Source: Flavivirga abyssicola
GTDB lineage: Bacteria; Bacteroidota; Bacteroidia; Flavobacteriales; Flavobacteriaceae
Direction of reading: 5' to 3'
DNA: 64,000 bases
Assembly (NCBI RefSeq): GCF_030540775.2
Contig: NZ_CP141266.1
Coordinates: 3,397,001 to 3,461,000 of the forward strand
In this document: piece by piece, positions 2,208 through 10,843 of the stretch
Layout: every line of letters starts with the position of its first letter
How positions within the stretch are numbered: the first letter of the stretch is position 1
Translations under genes and position numbers: made by a program
Notes under the pieces: model-generated
Databases searched by the model: none
Seen by the model: only the letters and a program-made list of their open reading frames with translations
Told to the model about the DNA's origin: nothing

Positions 2208-3230
2208 TTATTTAGATTGTAAAGTTATTGTTTTTCCTTCACGTAAAACTGTTAGTTCAAATTTTGGATTCTTTTCTAAGCTATTTGCAAAATCAGCAAT
2301 CTTCAATAAGGTGTAGTCTGTAACTTCGTACTTTATATCATTAAAGGCCAATATAATATCACCGCCCAAAATTAGTTTTTTATTACCAACAGTTACCTCA
2401 GTATCCCCCTCTTTTACTCCCATTTTATCAAATAAAGAAGCGGAAGCAATACGTTGCACTAATAAACCACTTGTTTGAGGCAGATTAAACAGTTTAGCTT
2501 CTTTTTCAGATAAGGAATATAACTCAGCACCAAACCAAGGCATTTTATTATTTAAAAGGAGTTTGGCAGCTAAATTAGACGTTGAGGCATAACCAATACC
2601 ATCAGAACCTCCTGATAATGATTTTATGTGACTTACAATACCTATAACATCACCTTCCAAGTTAAACATTGGACCTCCAGAGTTACCTTGATTTATAGCG
2701 GCATCTGTTTGAATAAACTCCGTATTAGTAAAAGGATTTCTTCCTAAAAATTGTTTTTTAAAAGCACTAATATAACCTGAAGATAGAGATAAACCGACAC
2801 CAAGAGGCACACCAATGATGAACACGCGTTGTCCAACTTTCATTCGGTCCGAATCGCCGAACCTTAAAACTGTAGCATTTATTTTCTGTCTTGATAATTC
2901 TAATAAAGCTATATCTGCACTATCATAGGAAGTAATTACTTTAGCTGGTATAGTTTCTCCATCTGAAAACTGTACAACTAAAGTATCGGGCACTTTTACA
3001 ACATGAGCCGCAGTTACAACTAATTTATTGGATATCATAAAGCCAGACCCTAAACCAGAATTTGTAACTGTTTGAGAAACATTGTTTTGAGAGGTAGCTA
3101 TATTGCTTTCTTGAGTATAAATAGCAACAACGGCAGGACTTACCCTTTCATAAATAGAAGATAGGTCTTGTGCATTAGTATAATGTATGGCAAATAACCA
3201 TATTAGAATTAATCTAATTATTTTTTTCAT
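2208..3230 (-). CDS. HtrA/DegP-like trypsin family serine protease with PDZ domain
   Basis: 340 residues, shorter than two-PDZ DegP. Signal peptide of about 20 residues ending TNAQ. The trypsin-like domain has the full catalytic triad: His76 in TAAHVV, Asp106 in SADIALL, Ser184 in QGNSGGP. A single PDZ domain fills about residues 235-335 (LLVQRIASASLFDKMGVKEGD, then GGDIILAFN). It should act in the periplasm on misfolded envelope proteins, as DegS/DegQ-type proteins do. It precedes the SLC13 permease gene on the other side of a 77-base gap but the two read in the same direction; the permease is upstream. Family is certain, the exact subgroup is not. Confidence 0.93.
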   Translation of the reverse strand: MKKIIRLILIWLFAIHYTNAQDLSSIYERVSPAVVAIYTQESNIATSQNNVSQTVTNSGLGSGFMISNKLVVTAAHVVKVPDTLVVQFSDGETIPAKVITSYDSADIALLELSRQKINATVLRFGDSDRMKVGQRVFIIGVPLGVGLSLSSGYISAFKKQFLGRNPFTNTEFIQTDAAINQGNSGGPMFNLEGDVIGIVSHIKSLSGGSDGIGYASTSNLAAKLLLNNKMPWFGAELYSLSEKEAKLFNLPQTSGLLVQRIASASLFDKMGVKEGDTEVTVGNKKLILGGDIILAFNDIKYEVTDYTLLKIADFANSLEKNPKFELTVLREGKTITLQSK

Positions 3231-3307: not shown

Positions 3308-5158
3308 TCAAAAAGGCCAAATCATAGGCACTAAAATCAAAGATAAAATAAAAAATAGTAGTAATAATGGCGAGCCAACTTTAACATAATCCATAAATTT
3401 ATAATCGCCTGCTGCCATAACCATCGCATTTGTAGTTGTACCAACAGGGGTTAAAAAGGCAGTAGATGCACTAATAGCCACAACAATCATAAATGGCTCG
3501 GGCGAAATATTTAAAGACGTGGCAGCTAATATAGCTATTGGCGCCATTAAAACAGCAGTAGCTGAATTATTAATGGCTTGACTAAAACCAGTAGTTAATA
3601 AAAATATGCCACCTAATAAAACAATAGGGTGTATACTCCCTAAATTAGTAACCAAACTATTGGCTGCTAGTTCTGCAACACCAGTTTTTTGAAGCGCAAT
3701 ACCCATAGGAATCATTGCTGCAATCATTACCACGCTTATCCAGCTAATGCCTTTGTAAGCCTTAGCCATAGGTACACAACCAGTTAATAAAATAACACCC
3801 GCAGAAATCATAGCAGCAATGGCTCCTGGAACAATTTTAAATACTAGTAGCACAATCATTAGTAAAAGCATTGCTAATGAAATGTACGATTTATAGGTTA
3901 ATGTATTTACATCCTTAGACATGCTTTCTGGGTTTCCAGAAATCACTAAATTTTTATAAACGCTTTTTAAATGTTCTATACGCTCCCAAGTACCTCGAAT
4001 AATAAATGCATCTCCAGCTTTTACGGCTACGTTTTTATCTTTTAAAGGCTTGTTATTTCTTGAAGCAGCTAATAATTGAATACCTGCTTGTTCCAAATAC
4101 AATCCCATAGGTATGTTATGACCTAAAAAAAGCGATTTGGGTGTCACAATCATTTCTGCCATACCTACTTCTTGATTTATAAACTCATCCTTTAAATCAT
4201 CATTATTATTATTATTATTATTTTTAAAAGGAATCAAATTGAGTTTAAACTTCAGAATTATATTATCTACATCTTCTGTTTTTCCTTTTACAGTAATAAT
4301 GTCATGGTATTGTAAAACCGTATCTGGTATTGGAAATTCAACATATGGTTTTACGCCTTTTACAACATTTGGAAATCGTCTTCTTAATCTAATTATTGAA
4401 ACATTGTATTTATTATCAAAATCCCATTCACCAATAGTAGTATTTAACAGAGGAGACATTGAACGTACTCTTAAACGGTAAATATTTTCATCAATACTAT
4501 AATTTTCAATCCATTGATGCATTTCAGAATCTATATTTATTGGCTGATTTTCGGAGGTGTTTTTTGGCAATAATTTATAACCAATAAAACGGAAATATAA
4601 AATTGAAATCAATAGTAATGGCAACCCAATGAGGGCAAATTCAAAAAATGAAAAGGATTCAAATCCATTTTCTACTAAAGCATTACTAGCAATAATATTT
4701 GGAGGAGTTCCTGTTAATGTTAATAAGCCACCAGTATTTGATCCAAAAGCAACAGGCATTAATAATTTTGAAGGGAGTGTGCCCATTTTATATGCGGCAG
4801 ATACAGTAACGGGTAGTAATGTAGCAACAGTTCCAGTATTGCTTACAAAACCAGACAAAATACCAGAGCCTAAGGTGACTAATACTAATAGTTTGGGAAC
4901 GCTTTTACCAGCCCATTTTACAAATTTTTGTCCTACTAATGCTGTCCATCCTGTTTGAGATAAACCTTCACCAATAATAAATAGGGAAGCAATCATTATT
5001 ACTGTAGGGTTACTAAACCCGCTAAGAGTTTCAGGAAGGTCTAAGATGCCAAATAAAAATAAGCTTAACATAGACATAAGTGCTACAATATCTGGTGTGA
5101 ATTTACCCCAAACAAAAAGTCCTATTGTAATACCCAAAATAATTAAAAGTGTAAGCAT
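3308..5158 (-). CDS. SLC13 (DASS) family permease with two RCK_C-type domains
   Basis: 616 residues. Two halves of a divalent anion:Na+ symporter fold flank a soluble insert. First half: FVSNTGTVATLLPV (about residue 104) and NTGGLLTLTGTPPN (about 140). Second half: INNSATAVLMAPIA (about 530) and TPVGTTTNAMV (about 575). The two hairpin motifs with SNT/NNS are the substrate and Na+ sites of this family. The central 225-405 region holds two TrkA-C (RCK_C) regulatory domains. Substrates may be di/tricarboxylates or sulfate. It is a close paralogue of the protein at 50267-52108. An in-frame run of seven Asn codons (4202-4222) lengthens the linker between the RCK_C domains; the paralogue lacks it. 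Confidence 0.9.
   Translation of the reverse strand: MLTLLIILGITIGLFVWGKFTPDIVALMSMLSLFLFGILDLPETLSGFSNPTVIMIASLFIIGEGLSQTGWTALVGQKFVKWAGKSVPKLLVLVTLGSGILSGFVSNTGTVATLLPVTVSAAYKMGTLPSKLLMPVAFGSNTGGLLTLTGTPPNIIASNALVENGFESFSFFEFALIGLPLLLISILYFRFIGYKLLPKNTSENQPINIDSEMHQWIENYSIDENIYRLRVRSMSPLLNTTIGEWDFDNKYNVSIIRLRRRFPNVVKGVKPYVEFPIPDTVLQYHDIITVKGKTEDVDNIILKFKLNLIPFKNNNNNNNDDLKDEFINQEVGMAEMIVTPKSLFLGHNIPMGLYLEQAGIQLLAASRNNKPLKDKNVAVKAGDAFIIRGTWERIEHLKSVYKNLVISGNPESMSKDVNTLTYKSYISLAMLLLMIVLLVFKIVPGAIAAMISAGVILLTGCVPMAKAYKGISWISVVMIAAMIPMGIALQKTGVAELAANSLVTNLGSIHPIVLLGGIFLLTTGFSQAINNSATAVLMAPIAILAATSLNISPEPFMIVVAISASTAFLTPVGTTTNAMVMAAGDYKFMDYVKVGSPLLLLFFILSLILVPMIWPF
4202..4222. repeat. In-frame trinucleotide run (ATT)7
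   Basis: Seven perfect ATT units on the plus strand, encoding seven consecutive Asn (AAT) in the SLC13 protein, followed by two Asp. Slippage here would change the linker length by whole residues without breaking the frame. Confidence 0.9.
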
Positions 5159-5285: not shown

Positions 5286-5708
5286 CTATTCAATAATTTT
5301 AAAGCGCATCATAATAACATCATCTATCATTAAATTCAATTTTCCGTCAGCGTCTATGGCATGTTTATTGATTTTTTTAATGGTATTTAAAAAGACGTTT
5401 TCTCCATTTCCACAGAACATCATTGTTGTTGGTCCTGGATCGCCAAATGAAATGTCATCACCTTCTAAAGTATACTCTGCCGAATAACCGTTGCAGCTAT
5501 TTGTTCCTTCTGCTTTTTTAGTCGTTTTATTAAAAGTAATTACAGGTTTCTTATTAGGATATAAATCTGAAAAAGCTATTCGTGGTCCAGATATAAACTC
5601 AAGCTCCCAAGTCACATTGAAAAGATTAGTGCCTCTAGAGTTTTTTGATGATACACATGAACTCATTGTAACTAACAATATAGTTAAGATAATTCTGGTC
5701 ATTTTCAT
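5286..5708 (-). CDS. META domain lipoprotein (HslJ-like)
   Basis: 140 residues with lipoprotein signal MKMTRIILTILLVTMSSC (lipobox MSSC). The rest is one META domain: NVTWELEFI at the start, a G(T)NSCNGYSAEY core, and TMMFCGNGENVFLNTIKKI, the conserved N-C-N and M-x-C signature of this fold. META/HslJ proteins sit in the outer membrane or periplasm and have been linked to stress and novobiocin resistance in E. coli; the biochemical role is not settled. Followed by its own terminator. Confidence 0.88.
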   Translation of the reverse strand: MKMTRIILTILLVTMSSCVSSKNSRGTNLFNVTWELEFISGPRIAFSDLYPNKKPVITFNKTTKKAEGTNSCNGYSAEYTLEGDDISFGDPGPTTMMFCGNGENVFLNTIKKINKHAIDADGKLNLMIDDVIMMRFKIIE

Positions 5709-5773: not shown

Positions 5774-6250
5774 CTAATCAAATACAACATCACTTGTTTT
5801 TAAATTTTCAATATCCTTTTGATTTCTAGTGTTAACAGGAACCTCAATAGTTAAGAAGGTATCTTTTCCATCAGAATCTTCACCTTGATAAAATTTAAAA
5901 ACATAAGTTTCTTTCTGTAATACTCTTACTGGTATTGAAAATGTTGTTTCAGTAATAATTTGATTACAACCAATGCCATCATCTACATGTACTATAGGAT
6001 ATATAAGCCTTGTAGCCCCTTCATAAATATAATCAAATTGATCATAGTAAAAATAGCAACTATTGGGTAGCGATATAGTTACATTAACTTGGTAAGTGCT
6101 TCCGTAATTAAATTCCTCAGGAAGTTCTGCACTTATAATACTTGAGTACTCTAAGTGATAGTCGTGGTCGTTATCGTTGTCGCTGCTGCATGATAATACA
6201 GATATAGAAAGGCCAACGATTGTAATTAATAAATACTTAAAATTTTTCAT
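5774..6250 (-). CDS. Lipoprotein of unknown function
   Basis: 158 residues; signal MKNFKYLLITIVGLSISVLSC with lipobox VLSC, followed by an acidic linker SSDNDNDHDYH that resembles the SDDN-type export linker placed after the lipid Cys on many Bacteroidota surface lipoproteins (LES). The remainder is beta-rich with two Cys (NSCYF, GIGCNQ) and no domain I can name. It has its own TAnnTTTG promoter box at 6275-6282, which overlaps the stop codon of the upstream small ORF. Confidence 0.75.
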   Translation of the reverse strand: MKNFKYLLITIVGLSISVLSCSSDNDNDHDYHLEYSSIISAELPEEFNYGSTYQVNVTISLPNSCYFYYDQFDYIYEGATRLIYPIVHVDDGIGCNQIITETTFSIPVRVLQKETYVFKFYQGEDSDGKDTFLTIEVPVNTRNQKDIENLKTSDVVFD

Positions 6251-6447: not shown

Positions 6448-6636
6448 TTATTGTCTCATAGCTACTCCTGCAGCTGTTCCATATTCTTCTAGCGTTTTGA
6501 CAAACCCTTTGATAGTGTTTTTGAAACCTATTTTAACTTTTTCCAGTAGTGTATATGTTGGGTTTTCTTCTATTATAGGTCTATAAAAATTCTTGTTGAA
6601 TTGCGCGTTGTTAATTGTTGTGCTTTCAGTTCTCAT
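6448..6636 (-). CDS. Small 62-residue protein, first gene behind the LytTR-type promoter
   Basis: 62 codons from ATG at 6636. The sequence is polar with an amphipathic helical middle (TLLEKVKIGFKNTIKGFVKTLEEY) and no signal peptide or known domain. Support for being real comes from context: the start lies 32 bases from a TACATTTG box, upstream of which are three 21-bp-spaced repeats, and a second small ORF follows after 12 bases. It reads toward the 5774-6250 lipoprotein gene. Function unknown. Confidence 0.5.
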   Translation of the reverse strand: MRTESTTINNAQFNKNFYRPIIEENPTYTLLEKVKIGFKNTIKGFVKTLEEYGTAAGVAMRQ

Positions 6637-6667: not shown

Positions 6668-6675
6668 CAAATGTA
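6668..6675 (-). promoter_or_regulatory. -7 promoter box of the LytTR-type promoter A
   Basis: TACATTTG on the minus strand, a full match to TAnnTTTG. It lies 32 bases from the triple repeat at 6708-6760, exactly the distance seen in promoter B at 10751-10758. The -33 region has no good TTG, as expected for an activator-dependent promoter. Confidence 0.7.
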
Positions 6676-6707
6676 GCCTGAAGCAACAGAGGAAATCGGA
6701 GCTATTT

Positions 6708-6760
6708 AAGTGAAGTGACCAAATAAGGAAGTGAAGTGATTCTACTTGAAAGTGAACTTA
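6708..6760 (-). promoter_or_regulatory. Three 21-bp-spaced direct repeats, candidate LytTR operator A
   Basis: On the plus strand: AAGTGAAGTGA at 6708-6718, AAGTGAAGTGA at 6729-6739, AAGTGAACTTA at 6750-6760. Start-to-start spacing is exactly 21 bases twice. LytTR-domain regulators bind short direct repeats phased at about two helical turns, and a LytTR response regulator is encoded 1.2 kb away. The same triplet occurs at 10791-10843. Confidence 0.75.
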
Positions 6761-6855
6761 AAATGTCAGTATTAGGTAAGTGATAAGAATTGAAGAAAAC
6801 AGCTCTGTTTTGATACCCTAATTATAATGGTATAACTTCAAAAATGCTACTCAGA

Positions 6856-7917
6856 TTAAAGCGTATCTTCAGTACGTGTTACGGAATAGATATTTACTGT
6901 TCCCTGCTTACCTTTTAGAAGCACATTGCCTTCAAGTTTAGATGTCGTCCATGAGTCGATTTCTACGACTTTTAAAAGTTTTTCTGAAATAAGTAGATCA
7001 AACCCTAATCGATTACATTGGCCTTGGATTCTTGAAGCTGTATTTATAGTATCACCGTGATAAGCAATTTCACGTTTATATTCTCCAACTTCTGCAATAG
7101 TTACGATACCGCAATTCATACCTGCTTTAAATTCTGGTACTAAACCATAAGTTTTTAGATAGTAATCTGTTCTACTATTAATTTGATCTTTAAAAGCATA
7201 AAAAGCACGAATACTTTTAGCGTTTTTAAGACCTTCTTTATACGGCCAAGTTAAAACAGCTTCATCTCCCACATATTGGTAAATAGAAGTTTTATATTTA
7301 TTAACTATGGCTAAATCATAAAAACAGTCTTGAAGGAGCTTGCTATATTTTATATGTCCTAATTTTTCAGCAATTGTAGTAGAGTTTCTAAGGTCTAAAA
7401 ACATAAAAATAAGCTCTTTTTCTTTTGGAGTATAGAATTTTCCTGAAATGAATTTAATCAAATTGCCTTCACCTAGCATTAAATTAATATTGAGAAAAAG
7501 ACTTATAAAGAAGTTTACAAATACAGTATAGATAAGGCTAACCCAAATGACAGGTAACTGGATAAATTCTGATATTTTAAAAGTAGTGTCTACAAATATT
7601 TCAACCTTAACAAACAAATAAAACATAAATACATAAAACCCAATAGCAGATATAATTTGTAGTATAAGTGCAAATACCAATAACTTAGATAATGAAATAC
7701 GTTTTCTAACCAATTTTTCAAGGAAAATGTGAAGTGTACCGTAAAGTAACCCTTGGGTTATCCATGCTATAATGAATATAAAAAGTATATTGGAGAAAGA
7801 GTCCTCCATGTAAGGGATGTTCACGTCATGAGACCCGCGAAGGAGTTGCCAGATGAGGCTTGCCATTAACCAACCGATGATATAATCCCGTAATATTTTA
7901 TAATGTCTAGATTTCAA
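6856..7917 (-). CDS. Membrane-anchored class III adenylate cyclase
   Basis: 353 residues: an N-terminal membrane region with four helices (about 12-30, 42-62, 78-104, 122-146) and a C-terminal class III cyclase domain (about 168-350). The metal-binding aspartates are Asp175 (FMFLDLRNST) and Asp218 (YVGDEAV); Lys264 and Thr290 occupy the purine-specifying positions in the pattern that selects ATP; Asn292 and Arg296 (NTASR) are the transition-state residues. All catalytic positions are present, so it should make cAMP. It starts 35 bases after the response regulator stop and is probably the third gene of the kinase-regulator operon, which suggests that cyclase level is tied to this two-component system. 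Confidence 0.9.
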   Translation of the reverse strand: MKSRHYKILRDYIIGWLMASLIWQLLRGSHDVNIPYMEDSFSNILFIFIIAWITQGLLYGTLHIFLEKLVRKRISLSKLLVFALILQIISAIGFYVFMFYLFVKVEIFVDTTFKISEFIQLPVIWVSLIYTVFVNFFISLFLNINLMLGEGNLIKFISGKFYTPKEKELIFMFLDLRNSTTIAEKLGHIKYSKLLQDCFYDLAIVNKYKTSIYQYVGDEAVLTWPYKEGLKNAKSIRAFYAFKDQINSRTDYYLKTYGLVPEFKAGMNCGIVTIAEVGEYKREIAYHGDTINTASRIQGQCNRLGFDLLISEKLLKVVEIDSWTTSKLEGNVLLKGKQGTVNIYSVTRTEDTL

Positions 7918-7952
7918 ATTAAATCATTGATAGTTGAACGTTTTTAGTGAGC

Positions 7953-8723
7953 CTAATTATTTATCCATGTTTTTATTTCTGATGATTTCGCTTTGCTTAT
8001 TGTAATGCGCTCCTTAGATGGCGGATTTACATTAATAATTAGTTTTCCATTAAAGTAGAATTTAATATTCTGTATAGCATTTCTATTAAGTATAAATTGT
8101 CTGTTTGCTCTATGAAAATTATACGGGTCTAATTCGTTTTCAATGCCTTCTAGTTTTTTATCTATTATGTAAGTTTGATTTTTAAGTGTCACAGCTTTTA
8201 CAATACTATTTTCTATATAAAAATAAGCAATATCTTCTGTTTTAACTGGAATTAATTCATCTCTCTGATGTACTAAAAATGTTGTCCTGAAAACTTGATT
8301 TTTAGATTGCATTAATTGTACTAATTGTTGAATGTTGTTATAAGAGATTGTATCAATTTTTGCGTTGGTTTTAAACTTTTTAATTGAGCTACTTAATTCT
8401 TCTTCATTAATTGGCTTTAAAAGATAATCAATGCTATTTACCTTAAATGCTTTTAGTGCATATTGGTCATAAGCTGTTGTAAATATTATTGGAATATTGA
8501 TGGTTACTTGTTCAAAAATTTCAAATGAAATACCGTCAGAAAGGTGTATATCCATAAAAACTAAAACGGCTTCGCTTGGATTAGAAAAATAATCGATGGC
8601 CGCTTTTACAGAATCCAGAACAGTTAGTATCTCTATGCTAGAATCTATATTATTTATTAAGTAAGTGAGTTGTTCACTTGCTGCTAATTCATCTTCTACA
8701 ATAACTACTTTCATGGTAATCAA
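7953..8723 (-). CDS. LytTR-family response regulator
   Basis: 256 residues. Receiver domain at about 4-125 with acidic pocket VEDE, phosphoacceptor Asp58 (VFMDIH), Thr in FTTAYDQYA and Lys in YLLKPI. LytTR DNA-binding domain at about 150-256 (FLVHQRDELIPVKTEDIAYFY, FHRANRQFILN). The annotated start MITMKVVIVEDE overlaps the kinase stop by four bases (ATGA), while a second ATG three codons later gives the more usual MKVVIVEDE. Candidate targets are the two promoters with 21-bp-phased repeats on either side of this operon. Confidence 0.93.
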   Translation of the reverse strand: MITMKVVIVEDELAASEQLTYLINNIDSSIEILTVLDSVKAAIDYFSNPSEAVLVFMDIHLSDGISFEIFEQVTINIPIIFTTAYDQYALKAFKVNSIDYLLKPINEEELSSSIKKFKTNAKIDTISYNNIQQLVQLMQSKNQVFRTTFLVHQRDELIPVKTEDIAYFYIENSIVKAVTLKNQTYIIDKKLEGIENELDPYNFHRANRQFILNRNAIQNIKFYFNGKLIINVNPPSKERITISKAKSSEIKTWINN

Positions 8724-9775
8724 TTTAAAGAAAGTTTGACTTTAAAGGTATTGTTTTTATTACTTATTGATATGTGCTTCTTTTTTAGAGCATAATACCG
8801 CTTATTAAGGTTTGATAAGCCATTTCCTGTTCCAGTAGTTAAACTTTTTCTGGGTCTTATTTCATTTTCAATAATTATAAACGCATCTTCGGAATATATA
8901 TTAACTTGAAGTGGGTTCTCTTCTGATATTTCATTGTGTTTAATGGCATTTTCAACTAACAATTGAAACGCTAAAACGGGCACCTCTTTTTTCATCCATT
9001 TTTCATGAATATTATAAGTGATGTTAAAACGATTACGATATCTTGTTTTTATTAAATGGATATAACTACTTAAAAAATCGAGCTCTTCTTTTATAGATAC
9101 TAAATCCCGTTCACTACTTTGCAGAATATAACGATACATAGTGGAGAGTTTGTTTATAAAATTTGTAGCATCTTTATTTTCTTTTACAAGTGAACTTAAT
9201 GAATTTAGCGAGTTGAATAGAAAATGAGGATTAACTTGGTTTTTTAAAGCCATCAATTCATTTTGTAAGCTTTGTTGTTTTAAAGCTTCTTGCTCTATTA
9301 ATTTTTCTTTTAAGCTCAATTGATATCTTAAAATTCTAGCGATAAAGATAATTATTACTGTTATAACGAAATAGATGAAGTAGGTTAACCCTTTTTCTTC
9401 TGAAACCATTGATTCTCCTACTAATATTGGATACAAAAAGAAGAATAAATGCAATAAAGCTAAGTATAAAGCAATATTAATTATGATAGTTGTTAACCCT
9501 CTTAGTACGCTTTGAAATTTTGAATAAAAATATTTAGTATTTGCATTAAACTCTAATAACAACCAAGAAAAAAAGGTAAACCATAAAAACCGAAAGAGTA
9601 TATCTTTTACAGAAGCAGAAGTGAAAGCAGTTGATAGGTCATCTACAATATCAAATATAATTAAGATCCTAGGAGAGGTTAAGAGTATTGATATTATAAA
9701 TGCTATACCTATTAAAACTTTTTGCTTTATAAATTTGGTCGTCAAAATGGTTATAATGTTATTGATGAAGAACAT
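8720..9775 (-). CDS. LytS/YehU-type sensor histidine kinase
   Basis: 351 residues. Four membrane helices in the first 150 residues without a recognisable extracellular sensor domain; a linker helix; then the His_kinase (PF06580) segment with phosphoacceptor His184 in NQVNPHFLFNSLNSL; then a HATPase domain with N-box VENAIKHN and G-box GTGNGLSNLNKRY. Signal is therefore likely membrane-borne or sensed through the helices. Coupled by a 4-base overlap to the LytTR regulator. No copy of the 21-bp-phased repeat is seen in front of this gene, so it is not obviously autoregulated. Confidence 0.92.
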   Translation of the reverse strand: MFFINNIITILTTKFIKQKVLIGIAFIISILLTSPRILIIFDIVDDLSTAFTSASVKDILFRFLWFTFFSWLLLEFNANTKYFYSKFQSVLRGLTTIIINIALYLALLHLFFFLYPILVGESMVSEEKGLTYFIYFVITVIIIFIARILRYQLSLKEKLIEQEALKQQSLQNELMALKNQVNPHFLFNSLNSLSSLVKENKDATNFINKLSTMYRYILQSSERDLVSIKEELDFLSSYIHLIKTRYRNRFNITYNIHEKWMKKEVPVLAFQLLVENAIKHNEISEENPLQVNIYSEDAFIIIENEIRPRKSLTTGTGNGLSNLNKRYYALKKKHISISNKNNTFKVKLSLN

Positions 9776-9842
9776 AACTAATATAGTTAAAATTAATGTA
9801 AGTAAATTGTATAATTTTAGCTGATTATGAATGAAATTAAAA

Positions 9843-9886
9843 ACTGCCAGAGAGGTATGAAATGTATTTCAATAATCTCTGGCAGT
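9843..9886 (-). terminator. Strong terminator after the 9921 lipoprotein gene
   Basis: ACTGCCAGAGA pairs perfectly with TCTCTGGCAGT around a 22-base loop; on the minus strand it is followed by TTTTTAATTT. It ends the 10726-9921 unit before the kinase operon. Confidence 0.85.
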
Positions 9887-9920
9887 CAAACTAACTAACC
9901 AAACCAACTATATATGAAAA

Positions 9921-10574
9921 CTATTTTATCAATTCGTTTACTATTCGTTTTGAAAAATCTTTAGAAATTGTCCCTAAAGACTTAGGGTTATCAATCTCTG
10001 TCGTTATAACTGATATTAATTGTTCGTTATCAGTTTTTGTTAAATCGTAAATTACAGTTTCGAGAATGTATTTTTTACCAGTATAGGTTATGGTGCTTTC
10101 AGGCTCAGATTTTACATGAATACTACTATAGTAACGATAGAATGTGCCGTTAGGTCCTCTAAAATATGTGGGAAAATAAAGTGTTGAGTAACCACCACCA
10201 GCTGTTTCTGTTCTTGAATATTCTTGAGTGTCTTTTAAAGTGTTAAGAATAATTATGTCTACGCCTTTATTTTTCAAATCGTCAACGATTTTTTGAACTT
10301 CATTTTCGTTAAGTTTTACCTCGGTGTCAATTTTTGAAAAAACGGTTAAGCTTTCCATAGAATTGAGACCATATTCTCTTAACTTGTTTACAAGGTCACT
10401 CTCAAACTGACTTCTAATAACATGGTCGTCAGTTTTGCTTATTACCATGATGCGTTTATTATTTAAATTAAGCTCTTTTGAATTGTCCCAAGTGCCAACA
10501 ACTCTTACTGTTGAGCAACTTGTTACCATAACAATTAGTATTAATATGCCTAATATTTTGTTTATTGTTTTCAT
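9921..10574 (-). CDS. Lipoprotein, paralogue of 503-1183, behind LytTR-type promoter B
   Basis: 217 residues. Signal MKTINKILGILILIVMVTSC with lipobox VTSC; mature part STVRVVGTWDNSKEL. It parallels the 503-1183 lipoprotein (IRSQFESDLVNKL vs IRSSYEKAMVLKL; NTLKDTQE vs TALKDTKI; ILETVIYDL vs ILEAVVYDL). It is preceded by a 45-codon ORF with a 14-base gap and the leader AAACACTAGAAATCATG. The promoter further upstream carries the same triple repeat as promoter A, so the gene is a likely target of the neighbouring LytTR regulator. Fold and function unknown; outer-membrane or periplasmic. Confidence 0.78.
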   Translation of the reverse strand: MKTINKILGILILIVMVTSCSTVRVVGTWDNSKELNLNNKRIMVISKTDDHVIRSQFESDLVNKLREYGLNSMESLTVFSKIDTEVKLNENEVQKIVDDLKNKGVDIIILNTLKDTQEYSRTETAGGGYSTLYFPTYFRGPNGTFYRYYSSIHVKSEPESTITYTGKKYILETVIYDLTKTDNEQLISVITTEIDNPKSLGTISKDFSKRIVNELIK

Positions 10575-10588
10575 GATTTCTAGTGTTT

Positions 10589-10726
10589 TTATATAAACAT
10601 ATGGATGTCATTAGTATCTCTGTTGATTAAATTTAACCTTACTGAGATATAGTTTTCAGAGTTTTTTAGATGTAAAAAACGTTTTCCAAACTTCCATTTC
10701 TTTAGAATTGATTTTAAATTTTTCAT
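10589..10726 (-). CDS. Uncalled 45-residue basic peptide in the leader of the lipoprotein message
   Basis: ATG at 10726 lies 25 bases from the TACATTTG box at 10751-10758; 45 codons later TAA at 10589 is 14 bases from the lipoprotein ATG. The peptide starts MKNLKSILKKWKFGKRFLHL, is rich in Lys/Arg and has no hydrophobic segment. It occupies the same place as the 62-residue ORF behind promoter A, although the two peptides are not alike. It could be a coding small gene or a leader peptide. Confidence 0.4.
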   Translation of the reverse strand: MKNLKSILKKWKFGKRFLHLKNSENYISVRLNLINRDTNDIHMFI

Positions 10727-10750
10727 GACGTTATTGTTTAAATTCTTATA

Positions 10751-10758
10751 CAAATGTA
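10751..10758 (-). promoter_or_regulatory. -7 promoter box of the LytTR-type promoter B
   Basis: TACATTTG on the minus strand. The gap to the first repeat (10791) is 32 bases, identical to promoter A. Confidence 0.7.
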
Positions 10759-10790
10759 TGCCACGATTAAAGGCTGAATCTTAACTTTTT

Positions 10791-10843
10791 AAGTGAAATG
10801 ACTAAAATCTAAAATGAAGTGTCTGAAGTCAAATGTGAATTTA
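10791..10843 (-). promoter_or_regulatory. Three 21-bp-spaced direct repeats, candidate LytTR operator B
   Basis: On the plus strand: AAGTGAAATGA at 10791-10801, AAATGAAGTGT at 10812-10822, ATGTGAATTTA at 10833-10843. Each matches the corresponding repeat of operator A in 9 or 10 of 11 positions, in the same order, with the same 21-base spacing and the same distance to the -7 box. Confidence 0.7.

Follow-up and report, generated by a model that had tools for sequence, protein, structure and literature searches.

Two triple-repeat promoters at a LytTR two-component locus of Flavivirga abyssicola and a candidate regulon in the Flavobacteriaceae

Architecture of the locus

The window analysed here is a 64,000-nucleotide stretch of Flavivirga abyssicola (contig NZ_CP141266.1, positions 3,397,001 to 3,461,000, assembly GCF_030540775.2), and all feature coordinates are window positions. 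It encodes a membrane histidine kinase and a LytTR response regulator, and contains two promoters, P1 and P2, each with three direct repeats in front of a -7 box. The repeats, which are putative binding sites, lie 21 bp or about two helical turns apart and co-occur with the LytTR two-component system. The central features, including open reading frames (ORFs) with lengths in amino acids (aa) and ratios of nonsynonymous to synonymous substitution rates (dN/dS), are the following.

10791..10839, minus strand: P2 operator, three TTCACTT-type repeats 21 bp apart (10833-10839, 10812-10818, 10791-10797), found in the window scan and kept in relatives
10751..10758, minus strand: P2 -7 box TACATTTG, the last repeat lying 32 bp before it
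10589..10726, minus strand: 45-aa small ORF, the first gene of P2 (dN/dS 0.30)
9921..10574, minus strand: 217-aa lipoprotein, predicted PelC/CsgG-type fold (structure model)
9832..9931, minus strand: 3' element (GGTTAGTT motif) and terminator hairpin CTGCCAGAGA/TCTCTGGCAG-TTTTT in the lipoprotein/kinase interval, like the small RNA (sRNA)-like 3' module found elsewhere
8720..9775, minus strand: membrane histidine kinase (PF06580)
7953..8723, minus strand: LytTR response regulator (PF00072 and PF04397), first ATG at 8714
6856..7917, minus strand: membrane class III nucleotide cyclase, an optional member
6708..6756, minus strand: P1 operator, three exact TTCACTT repeats 21 bp apart (6750-6756, 6729-6735, 6708-6714)
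6668..6675, minus strand: P1 -7 box TACATTTG, the last repeat lying 32 bp before it
6448..6636, minus strand: 62-aa small ORF, with homologues behind a like promoter in genomes G011, G337 and G386

Behind P2, the same strand carries the 45-aa ORF, the 217-aa lipoprotein gene, the terminator and the kinase, regulator and cyclase genes, in this order. The regulator contains a receiver domain (PF00072, 42.4 bits) and a LytTR domain (PF04397, 70.9 bits) only, both above cutoff; the domain scan found no gas-sensing domain.

The repeat starts reported in an initial annotation of this DNA, read on the minus strand (6708, 6729 and 6750; 10791, 10812 and 10833), proved exact, and a gap of 32 bp separates the repeats from the box at both promoters (CAAATGTA, or TACATTTG on the minus strand, at 6668-6675 and 10751-10758). 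All three P1 repeats match the TTCACTT core without mismatch, and those of P2 show 1, 1 and 0 mismatches. When the window was scanned for any 7-mer repeated at a period of 15-30 and placed 25-40 bp from a TAnnTTTG box, only P1 and P2 were recovered, both with period 21. Exact triples, the level of P1, were absent from 40 first-order Markov control windows. At the level of P2 (four mismatches summed), these windows averaged 1.8 matches with a maximum of 9, so that P2 alone is not beyond chance, although its conservation does stand out. The genome scan suggested earlier for the three-repeat pattern, with up to three mismatches, returned P1 and P2 only; reading the pattern backwards is not an independent control here, because TTCACTT is its own reverse reading.

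The annotation had also named the targets of both promoters, and these needed revision. The lipoprotein gene and the 45-aa ORF, which looks real by its dN/dS, stand as putative P2 targets, and P2 also lies 5' of the kinase, regulator and cyclase genes on its strand, with a strong terminator in between. On the P1 side, a 53-aa ORF shows no coding signal (dN/dS 1.15), and the dN/dS of the 62-aa ORF (0.88) decides neither way, but this ORF has distant homologues behind a like promoter.

Conservation in related genomes

Repeat number, spacing and gap are kept at both promoters in the related loci L031, L032, L033, L034, L036, L044, L079 (genome G011) and L146 (G337), and locus L035 (G009) shows P1 only because its contig stops within the kinase gene. 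The closest named loci belong to 'uncultured Algibacter' and 'uncultured Flavobacteriaceae'. Loss of the repeats from a kept operon, which had been put forward as evidence that would speak against the reading, was not found in the close relatives compared. The 18-kb stretch of G006 (L080) has P2, kinase and regulator, but searching it for P1, the cyclase and the 62-aa ORF gave nothing. P1 is present in G337, where the cyclase was not found between the regulator and P1. G007 (kinase 42% identity) has the array followed by a small LTXXQ-like gene, kinase, regulator and an HtrA-like gene, and L039 (kinase 53%, regulator 60% identity) has an array with a degenerate third repeat.

Co-occurrence with the kinase-regulator pair

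Among 12 genomes of the genus, sites with at most three mismatches were present in 7/7 genomes with a kinase orthologue and 0/5 without. For the wider comparison of 397 Flavobacteriaceae genomes, kinase orthologues were defined by a profile match at E<=1e-60, which 41 genomes reached. Sites were searched with model R1, built from 20 promoters and used at E<=1e-4, and with the broader model R2, built from 38 promoters, to which 26 of the 41 kinase-positive genomes contributed rows. R1 sites occurred in 23 genomes, all of them kinase-positive, and this held for 19/19 after removal of the training genomes G000, G010, G046 and G130 (Fisher p 1.7e-22). R2 sites were present in 38/41 kinase-positive and 8/356 kinase-negative genomes; R2 also matched 12 of the 15 kinase-positive genomes that had given no row, two of these 12 (G010 and G046) being close relatives of the window. 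In the three genomes that R2 missed (G145, G148 and G335), the kinase scores are lower than in any other, and inspection by eye shows arrays directly behind the regulator genes. Applied to the whole genome of F. abyssicola, R2 at E<=0.1 gave P1 and P2 only, and R1 at E<=1 gave nine further matches, all at E>=0.11.

Across 24 paralogous LytTR kinase loci (93.7 kb), R1 had no match at E<=0.5, which speaks against triple repeats as a general feature of flavobacterial LytTR loci. Sites also occur far from the kinase: G398, a single 3.69-Mb contig, has sites at 0.37 and 1.17 Mb and the kinase at 3.62 Mb, and some sites of G028, G155, G179, G256, G247, G295, G119 and G235 lie on contigs without the kinase (these are drafts, in which contigs may adjoin). 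Linkage alone does not explain these sites.

The weak end was represented by 20 loci: 17 come from the 18 kinase-positive genomes in which R1 found no site, and 3 from genomes with an R1 site elsewhere. R1 found a match at E<=0.5 in 18 of them and at E<=0.01 in 17. In G028 and G162, the R1 matches were misplaced, and R2 places the arrays before the kinase. Outside the family, four other genomes among the 296 of a phylum sample reached the kinase threshold (208-220 bits), and R1 gave E 0.0019 at L216 and E 0.4 at L219 among their four kinase loci.

Several observations weigh against a strict pairing of the repeats with this system. Only 13 of the 20 weak-end loci have the R1 match 5' of the kinase on the same strand; in the others it lies behind the regulator (three), on the other strand (one) or elsewhere (one), or is lacking (two). 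The last two, L202 and L203 (G247 and G295, wider family), have a kinase without a clear array before it. The eight kinase-negative genomes with R2 sites are a further difficulty. The site of G059 adjoins a divergent LytTR regulator gene and that of G153 lies 2.6 kb from one, whereas a regulator with an ordinary paralogue score lies about 4 kb from the site in G137 and G326 and about 7 kb in G042; no LytTR regulator is found near the site of G004, and the sites of G231 and G242 are borderline cases. A tree was built from 48 regulators, which did not include those near the G137 and G326 sites. In it, 32 orthologues and the regulator of G153 form one group (98/88), outside which the G059 regulator falls.

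In G004, which lacks the orthologous kinase, a gene for a 158-aa-type lipoprotein has a triple-repeat promoter and an sRNA-like 3' element (L143, 2900-3532, plus strand). This state may reflect recent loss of the system or the action of another regulator.

These exceptions raise the question of whether another protein, either a LytTR paralogue or a protein of the cAMP-receptor type whose signal the cyclase would supply, binds the repeats while the linked system merely co-travels. Each genome has several LytTR paralogues, the lipoprotein of G004 keeps its repeat promoter without the orthologous kinase, and AAGTGA resembles half of a CRP site. We nevertheless regard this as unlikely, given that the sites track the orthologous kinase even at a distance (G398), that the 24 paralogue loci have none, and that G006 keeps P2 where the cyclase was not found. 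Moreover, the repeats are direct rather than inverted, and a period of 21 fits LytTR operators as described in passages of PMC11347149. The encoded regulator, already named by the initial annotation as the candidate reader, is thus backed by the co-occurrence and the paralogue control.

Promoter geometry and consensus

When spacing (16-26) and gap (24-41) were left free in 42 loci, 38 boxes scored >=18, with a gap of 32 in 25 and of 31 in 9, and a spacing of 21 in 33/38 and 34/38. The 20 loci fetched for their kinase are the fairer subset, because the other 22 came from a fixed-geometry model; in these, 11 boxes scored >=14 and the spacing was 21 in 9/11 and 10/11. A test open to any word and any period returned 10 boxes, every one of them at an orthologue locus and with period 21, whereas the 24 paralogue loci gave none; one of the 10 came from the 20 kinase-fetched loci, and the other nine came from 10 loci already known to carry arrays. 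The three-copy arrangement noted earlier is a conserved unit, and triple LytTR operators have a precedent in the systems described in passages of PMC11347149.

A logo of 34 promoters gave a unit of approximately TTTnGGnCG-TTTCACTT, with 1.04 bits per position within the units and 0.29 outside; these promoters were picked for motif and box, so that the presence of the box is by selection. Primary-sigma promoters of Bacteroidota combine a -7 TAnnTTTG box with a -33 TTG, and a sigma-70 promoter scan is unsuited to this phylum. A TTG 20-26 bp 5' of the box occurs in only 1/34 promoters, and its absence from the other 33 argues for an activator-dependent promoter.

The regulator could conversely act as a repressor, bound to the repeats 5' of P1 and P2 and silencing them until phosphorylation releases it. 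A precedent is CoxC, which is of the LytTR type, reads a triple operator and represses (PMC11347149, in part). The operator of CoxC overlaps the -35 element. Here, by contrast, 31-32 bp separate the end of the operator from the -7 box, and the -33 TTG is missing as expected for an activated promoter, and we consider repression improbable. Activation by the encoded LytTR regulator, its own locus included through the terminator, is very probable.

Tandem copies of the promoter, at intervals of about 260-300 bp, were seen at L262 (G247), L260 (G119) and L153 (G179).

Genes behind the sites

P1 is followed on the same strand by the 62-aa ORF, the doubtful 53-aa ORF and four further genes.

5774..6250, minus strand: 158-aa lipoprotein, 3' of P1, with its own triple-repeat promoter in G011, G162, G337 and G004
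5286..5708, minus strand: META-domain lipoprotein, P1 strand, downstream, putatively co-transcribed
3308..5158, minus strand: DASS/CitMHS-type anion transporter, P1 strand, downstream, putatively co-transcribed
2208..3230, minus strand: HtrA/DegP-like protease, P1 strand, putatively co-transcribed

Across the family, the genes behind the sites include those for 217-aa-type lipoproteins and those of the kinase-regulator operon, which is frequently joined by a gene for a small exported repeat protein (..FDT..YLP..F..). In 40 regulator-bearing loci (stretches of 8-21 kb), a 217-aa-type lipoprotein was found in 20, an HtrA-like gene in 12 and the cyclase in 8. Further genes encode DUF6515 proteins, an LTXXQ-like protein, 158-aa lipoproteins and others of no assigned family; a beta-barrel gene and a TolC-like gene follow a weaker site in G007, and a gene read as an efflux-pump adaptor follows a site in G085 and G295. 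The AlphaFold model of the 217-aa lipoprotein (predicted local distance difference test score, pLDDT, 78.5; predicted template-modelling score, pTM, 0.68) best matches PelC (E 1e-7, TM 0.47/0.62, but root-mean-square deviation 9-15 Å), with weaker matches to CsgG, TraT and DUF4136 proteins, and we assign it a predicted PelC/CsgG-type fold on this model.

The gene for the exported repeat protein often heads the kinase operon: at L149, L159, L162 and others, the first gene encodes tandem repeats such as EEEVxLxFDTxxYLPxxFxxY. The protein of L149 had no Pfam match at E<=0.01.

From this gene content, a role in envelope stress or envelope homeostasis is the most likely one, with guilt by association making the theme plausible. 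It is weakened by the sub-threshold Pfam match of the LTXXQ/Spy-like gene in G007 (19.3 bits, cutoff 24.3) and by genes behind sites that are metabolic or have no assigned role. Genes past the 62-aa ORF are putative members of the P1 operon. The main rival to the envelope-stress theme is a metabolic switch for C4-dicarboxylate or aspartate use or fumarate respiration. A Dcu transporter (assigned by a PF03605 scan for G386) and genes read as AspA-like and asparaginase-like lie behind a P1-type promoter in G011, G337, G130 and G386, and the window itself has the DASS-type transporter on the P1 side. Since the Dcu set is limited to these four genomes, and in view of the frequency of the lipoproteins and HtrA-like genes in the regulator-bearing loci, we hold a metabolic role to be rather unlikely, and prefer the envelope theme. 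The Dcu, AspA-like and asparaginase-like sets behind the triple promoter are headed by a micro-ORF like the 62-aa ORF at L079, L146, L147 and L152, the likeness at L147 being judged by eye from the C-terminal YGAAAAAAIRN.

The cyclase contains a domain of family PF00211 (32.9 bits, cutoff 21.9). It stands beside the system in the group of the window, and more distant homologues occur in L039, L148, L150 and L154. In class III cyclases, Lys and Asp/Thr residues select adenine, Asp residues bind the metal, and Asn and Arg stabilize the transition state. In the alignment to CyaB, the metal-binding aspartates are conserved in the protein, as are Asn and Arg of the transition state; in our reading, however, Gln and Ala occupy the adenine-selecting Lys and Asp/Thr positions. 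The suggestion of the initial annotation that the regulon includes cAMP synthesis is not borne out: the gene lies behind the terminator, it was not found in the stretch of G006 or the regulator-P1 interval of G337 mentioned above, and the usual adenine-selecting residues are missing in the alignment to solved cyclases. From the sequence, the cyclase would be an optional passenger with an uncertain substrate, and cAMP synthesis is unproven.

In L037 and L039, a homologous cyclase has as neighbours an HtrA-like protease and a protein paralogous to the 217-aa lipoprotein; the orthologous kinase was not found in the stretch of L037, which hints at an older functional link.

The 3' element and sRNA-like units

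Between lipoprotein and kinase lies a 12-bp terminator stem, and an 81-nt stretch here folds with -25.5 kcal/mol (z -5.3). The terminator scan that accompanied the sigma-70 promoter scan is blind to the long-loop terminator. A terminator-like hairpin 5' of the kinase was present in 30/44 loci (some of them close relatives) against 8/240 random stretches, which included coding DNA. The lipoprotein transcript of the window is closed by an R3 element (40.6 bits) related to a module described below, and this is the sole match in its genome at E<=1e-3 under strict filters; in 800 kb sampled from G000 and G256, the best other R3 match had 30.2 bits. Close relatives likewise have a related element at the end of this transcript, and in G011, G337 and G162 one ends the transcript of the 158-aa lipoprotein.

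At many sites of G028, G155, G179 and G256, the place of a gene is taken by a short unit (125-150 nt, measured in G028, G155 and G256) with the conserved end TTTTCATATGGTTAGTTTGGTTAGTTT and a GC-rich terminator stem. In these four genomes, which were chosen for showing the units, an R3 module follows 22/31 R2 promoters at 19-75 nt on their strand, a distance too short for a gene of ordinary length. Promoter-coupled modules number 8 in G256, 5 in G028, 5 in G179 and 4 in G155, and thus reach eight per genome; 13/35 modules in the four genomes lack such a promoter. Two-sided changes in the stem were found in 5/12 pairs, above shuffled and slid controls, although a small number of genomes supplied many of the rows as paralogues and pairing is required of any terminator. 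A start region (..CTAACC-ATATGAAAA) has the motif TTTTCATATGGTTAGTTTGGTTAGTT as its reverse complement.

Two findings weigh against an RNA regulator tied to the system. At E<=1e-3, R3 was found in 100/397 genomes, namely 14/41 kinase-positive and 86/356 others, so that it has no clear tie to the system and is ruled out as a marker for it; R3-like elements also lie at the ends of unrelated transcripts, in one case behind an apparent small heat-shock gene. Complementary 10-mers in leaders of sampled genes numbered 3 against 2.1 in shuffled sequence (301 genes, own genome) and 2 against 1.0 (323 genes, G256), which rules out antisense pairing as a general rule and leaves single targets possible. 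For these reasons, the GGTTAGTT-terminator element has a somewhat less than even chance, but a considerable one, of being an ordinary flavobacterial terminator rather than an RNA regulator. On the other side stand the short distance of the modules to 22 of 31 promoters, and the location of the single strict match of the window's genome at the lipoprotein/kinase locus. An Rfam search of seven sources at gathering thresholds returned two tRNAs only.

A second conserved 3' element, GATTAATAGCAA with a GAGACTGTC-type stem, was seen between leader gene and kinase at L148, L154, L157, L205, L206 and L215, and a third, TGATG(T/C)TGT with a CTGC(C/T)GGAG stem, at L147, L152 and L212. In genus g84 (L301 and L302), G094 and G300 each carry four matches to R3 at E<=1e-3; the two g84 copies that we read have another common upstream sequence, TAATGTAAAATGGTGGTTCG, and perhaps represent a related RNA family under other control.

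Proposed mechanism

Starting from the observed architecture, conservation, co-occurrence and gene content, we propose a scheme in which phosphorylation, binding, activation, read-through and a stress signal are putative steps. The kinase (9775-8720) would phosphorylate the LytTR regulator (8723-7953), which would bind the three direct repeats (unit approximately GTC[AG][CT]TTCAC[TC]T) on the same side of the double helix, at intervals of two turns. Bound directly 5' of a TAnnTTTG promoter without a -33 element, the regulator would recruit RNA polymerase. P2 would then drive the small ORF, the PelC-fold lipoprotein gene, and the 3' element with its terminator, and read-through would supply the kinase, regulator and cyclase genes; P1 would drive the small ORF and the lipoprotein gene, perhaps on to the HtrA-like protease. 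Across the family, the system may control genes of the envelope type, to which some genera would add several small RNAs. Taken as a whole, a phosphorylated LytTR activator acting on the triple repeats of P1 and P2 in an envelope role is probably correct. The initial annotation, with its 'compact regulon', missed the family-wide regulon, the likely autoregulation, the envelope-type targets and the sRNA-like units.

Comparison with known systems

Canonical LytTR operators are pairs of 9-bp direct repeats 10-13 bp apart, and those of RcoM (PAS-LytTR) and CoxC (MHYT-LytTR) consist of three direct repeats of 8 bp with spacers of 12-13 bp, read by LytTR domains (both from passages of PMC11347149). 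P1 and P2 share the LytTR domain with the former but have three repeats in fixed phase instead of a pair, and they resemble the latter in having three repeats with period 21, i.e. 8-bp units and 13-bp spacers, so that the kind of operator is already known. RcoM and CoxC are, as described there, one-component CO sensors with the words TTCNNGCA and TTNNNGCN; here a response regulator without a gas-sensing domain is encoded, and the consensus is TTCACTT instead of either word. The Bacteroidota -7 box at fixed distance and the family-wide set of sites are further differences. A titles-level search of the open-access literature turned up neither an envelope-stress two-component system nor a LytTR regulon described for Flavobacteriaceae, and nothing on the RNA units or on a fixed phase relative to the -7 box.

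The Cpx system offers a likeness in two-component control, with autoregulation and protease targets. It has a regulator of the OmpR family, whereas a LytTR regulator and a PF06580-type kinase are found here, so that the comparison concerns the way of working only. CpxQ is an sRNA from the 3' untranslated region (UTR) of cpxP, the most induced promoter (PMC4817254, in part). In contrast, the RNA units described here are stand-alone and multi-copy, and their RNA role is putative. The Clostridioides difficile regulator RgaR is, in addition, of the LytTR type. In the parts of the sources concerned, RgaR acts through one small RNA (PMC10602386), the response regulator CiaR drives several small RNAs (csRNAs) in streptococci (PMC8186281), and flavobacterial sRNAs are named Rfp11, Rfp13, Rfp15 and Rfp18 (PMC9723704). 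CiaR and RgaR belong to another phylum and have another operator architecture than P1 and P2.

Implications for the Flavobacteriaceae

The system, which belongs to a group of marine bacteria, may represent a Bacteroidota counterpart of Cpx and sigma-E, in which a rigid three-site LytTR operator controls an envelope-stress regulon (PelC-fold lipoproteins, HtrA-like proteases, efflux and outer-membrane genes) together with an RNA arm. In some genera this arm would be the 3'-UTR element, in others a set of homologous stand-alone small RNAs, at most eight in a genome. We put this joint proposal forward as tentative and still somewhat doubtful. A readable operator code would make the regulon predictable from sequence, and the strict 21-21-32 geometry would be a clean model for stacked LytTR proteins that activate a Bacteroidota polymerase. 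If the RNA units are real regulators, they would add a concrete family to a phylum in which few are understood.

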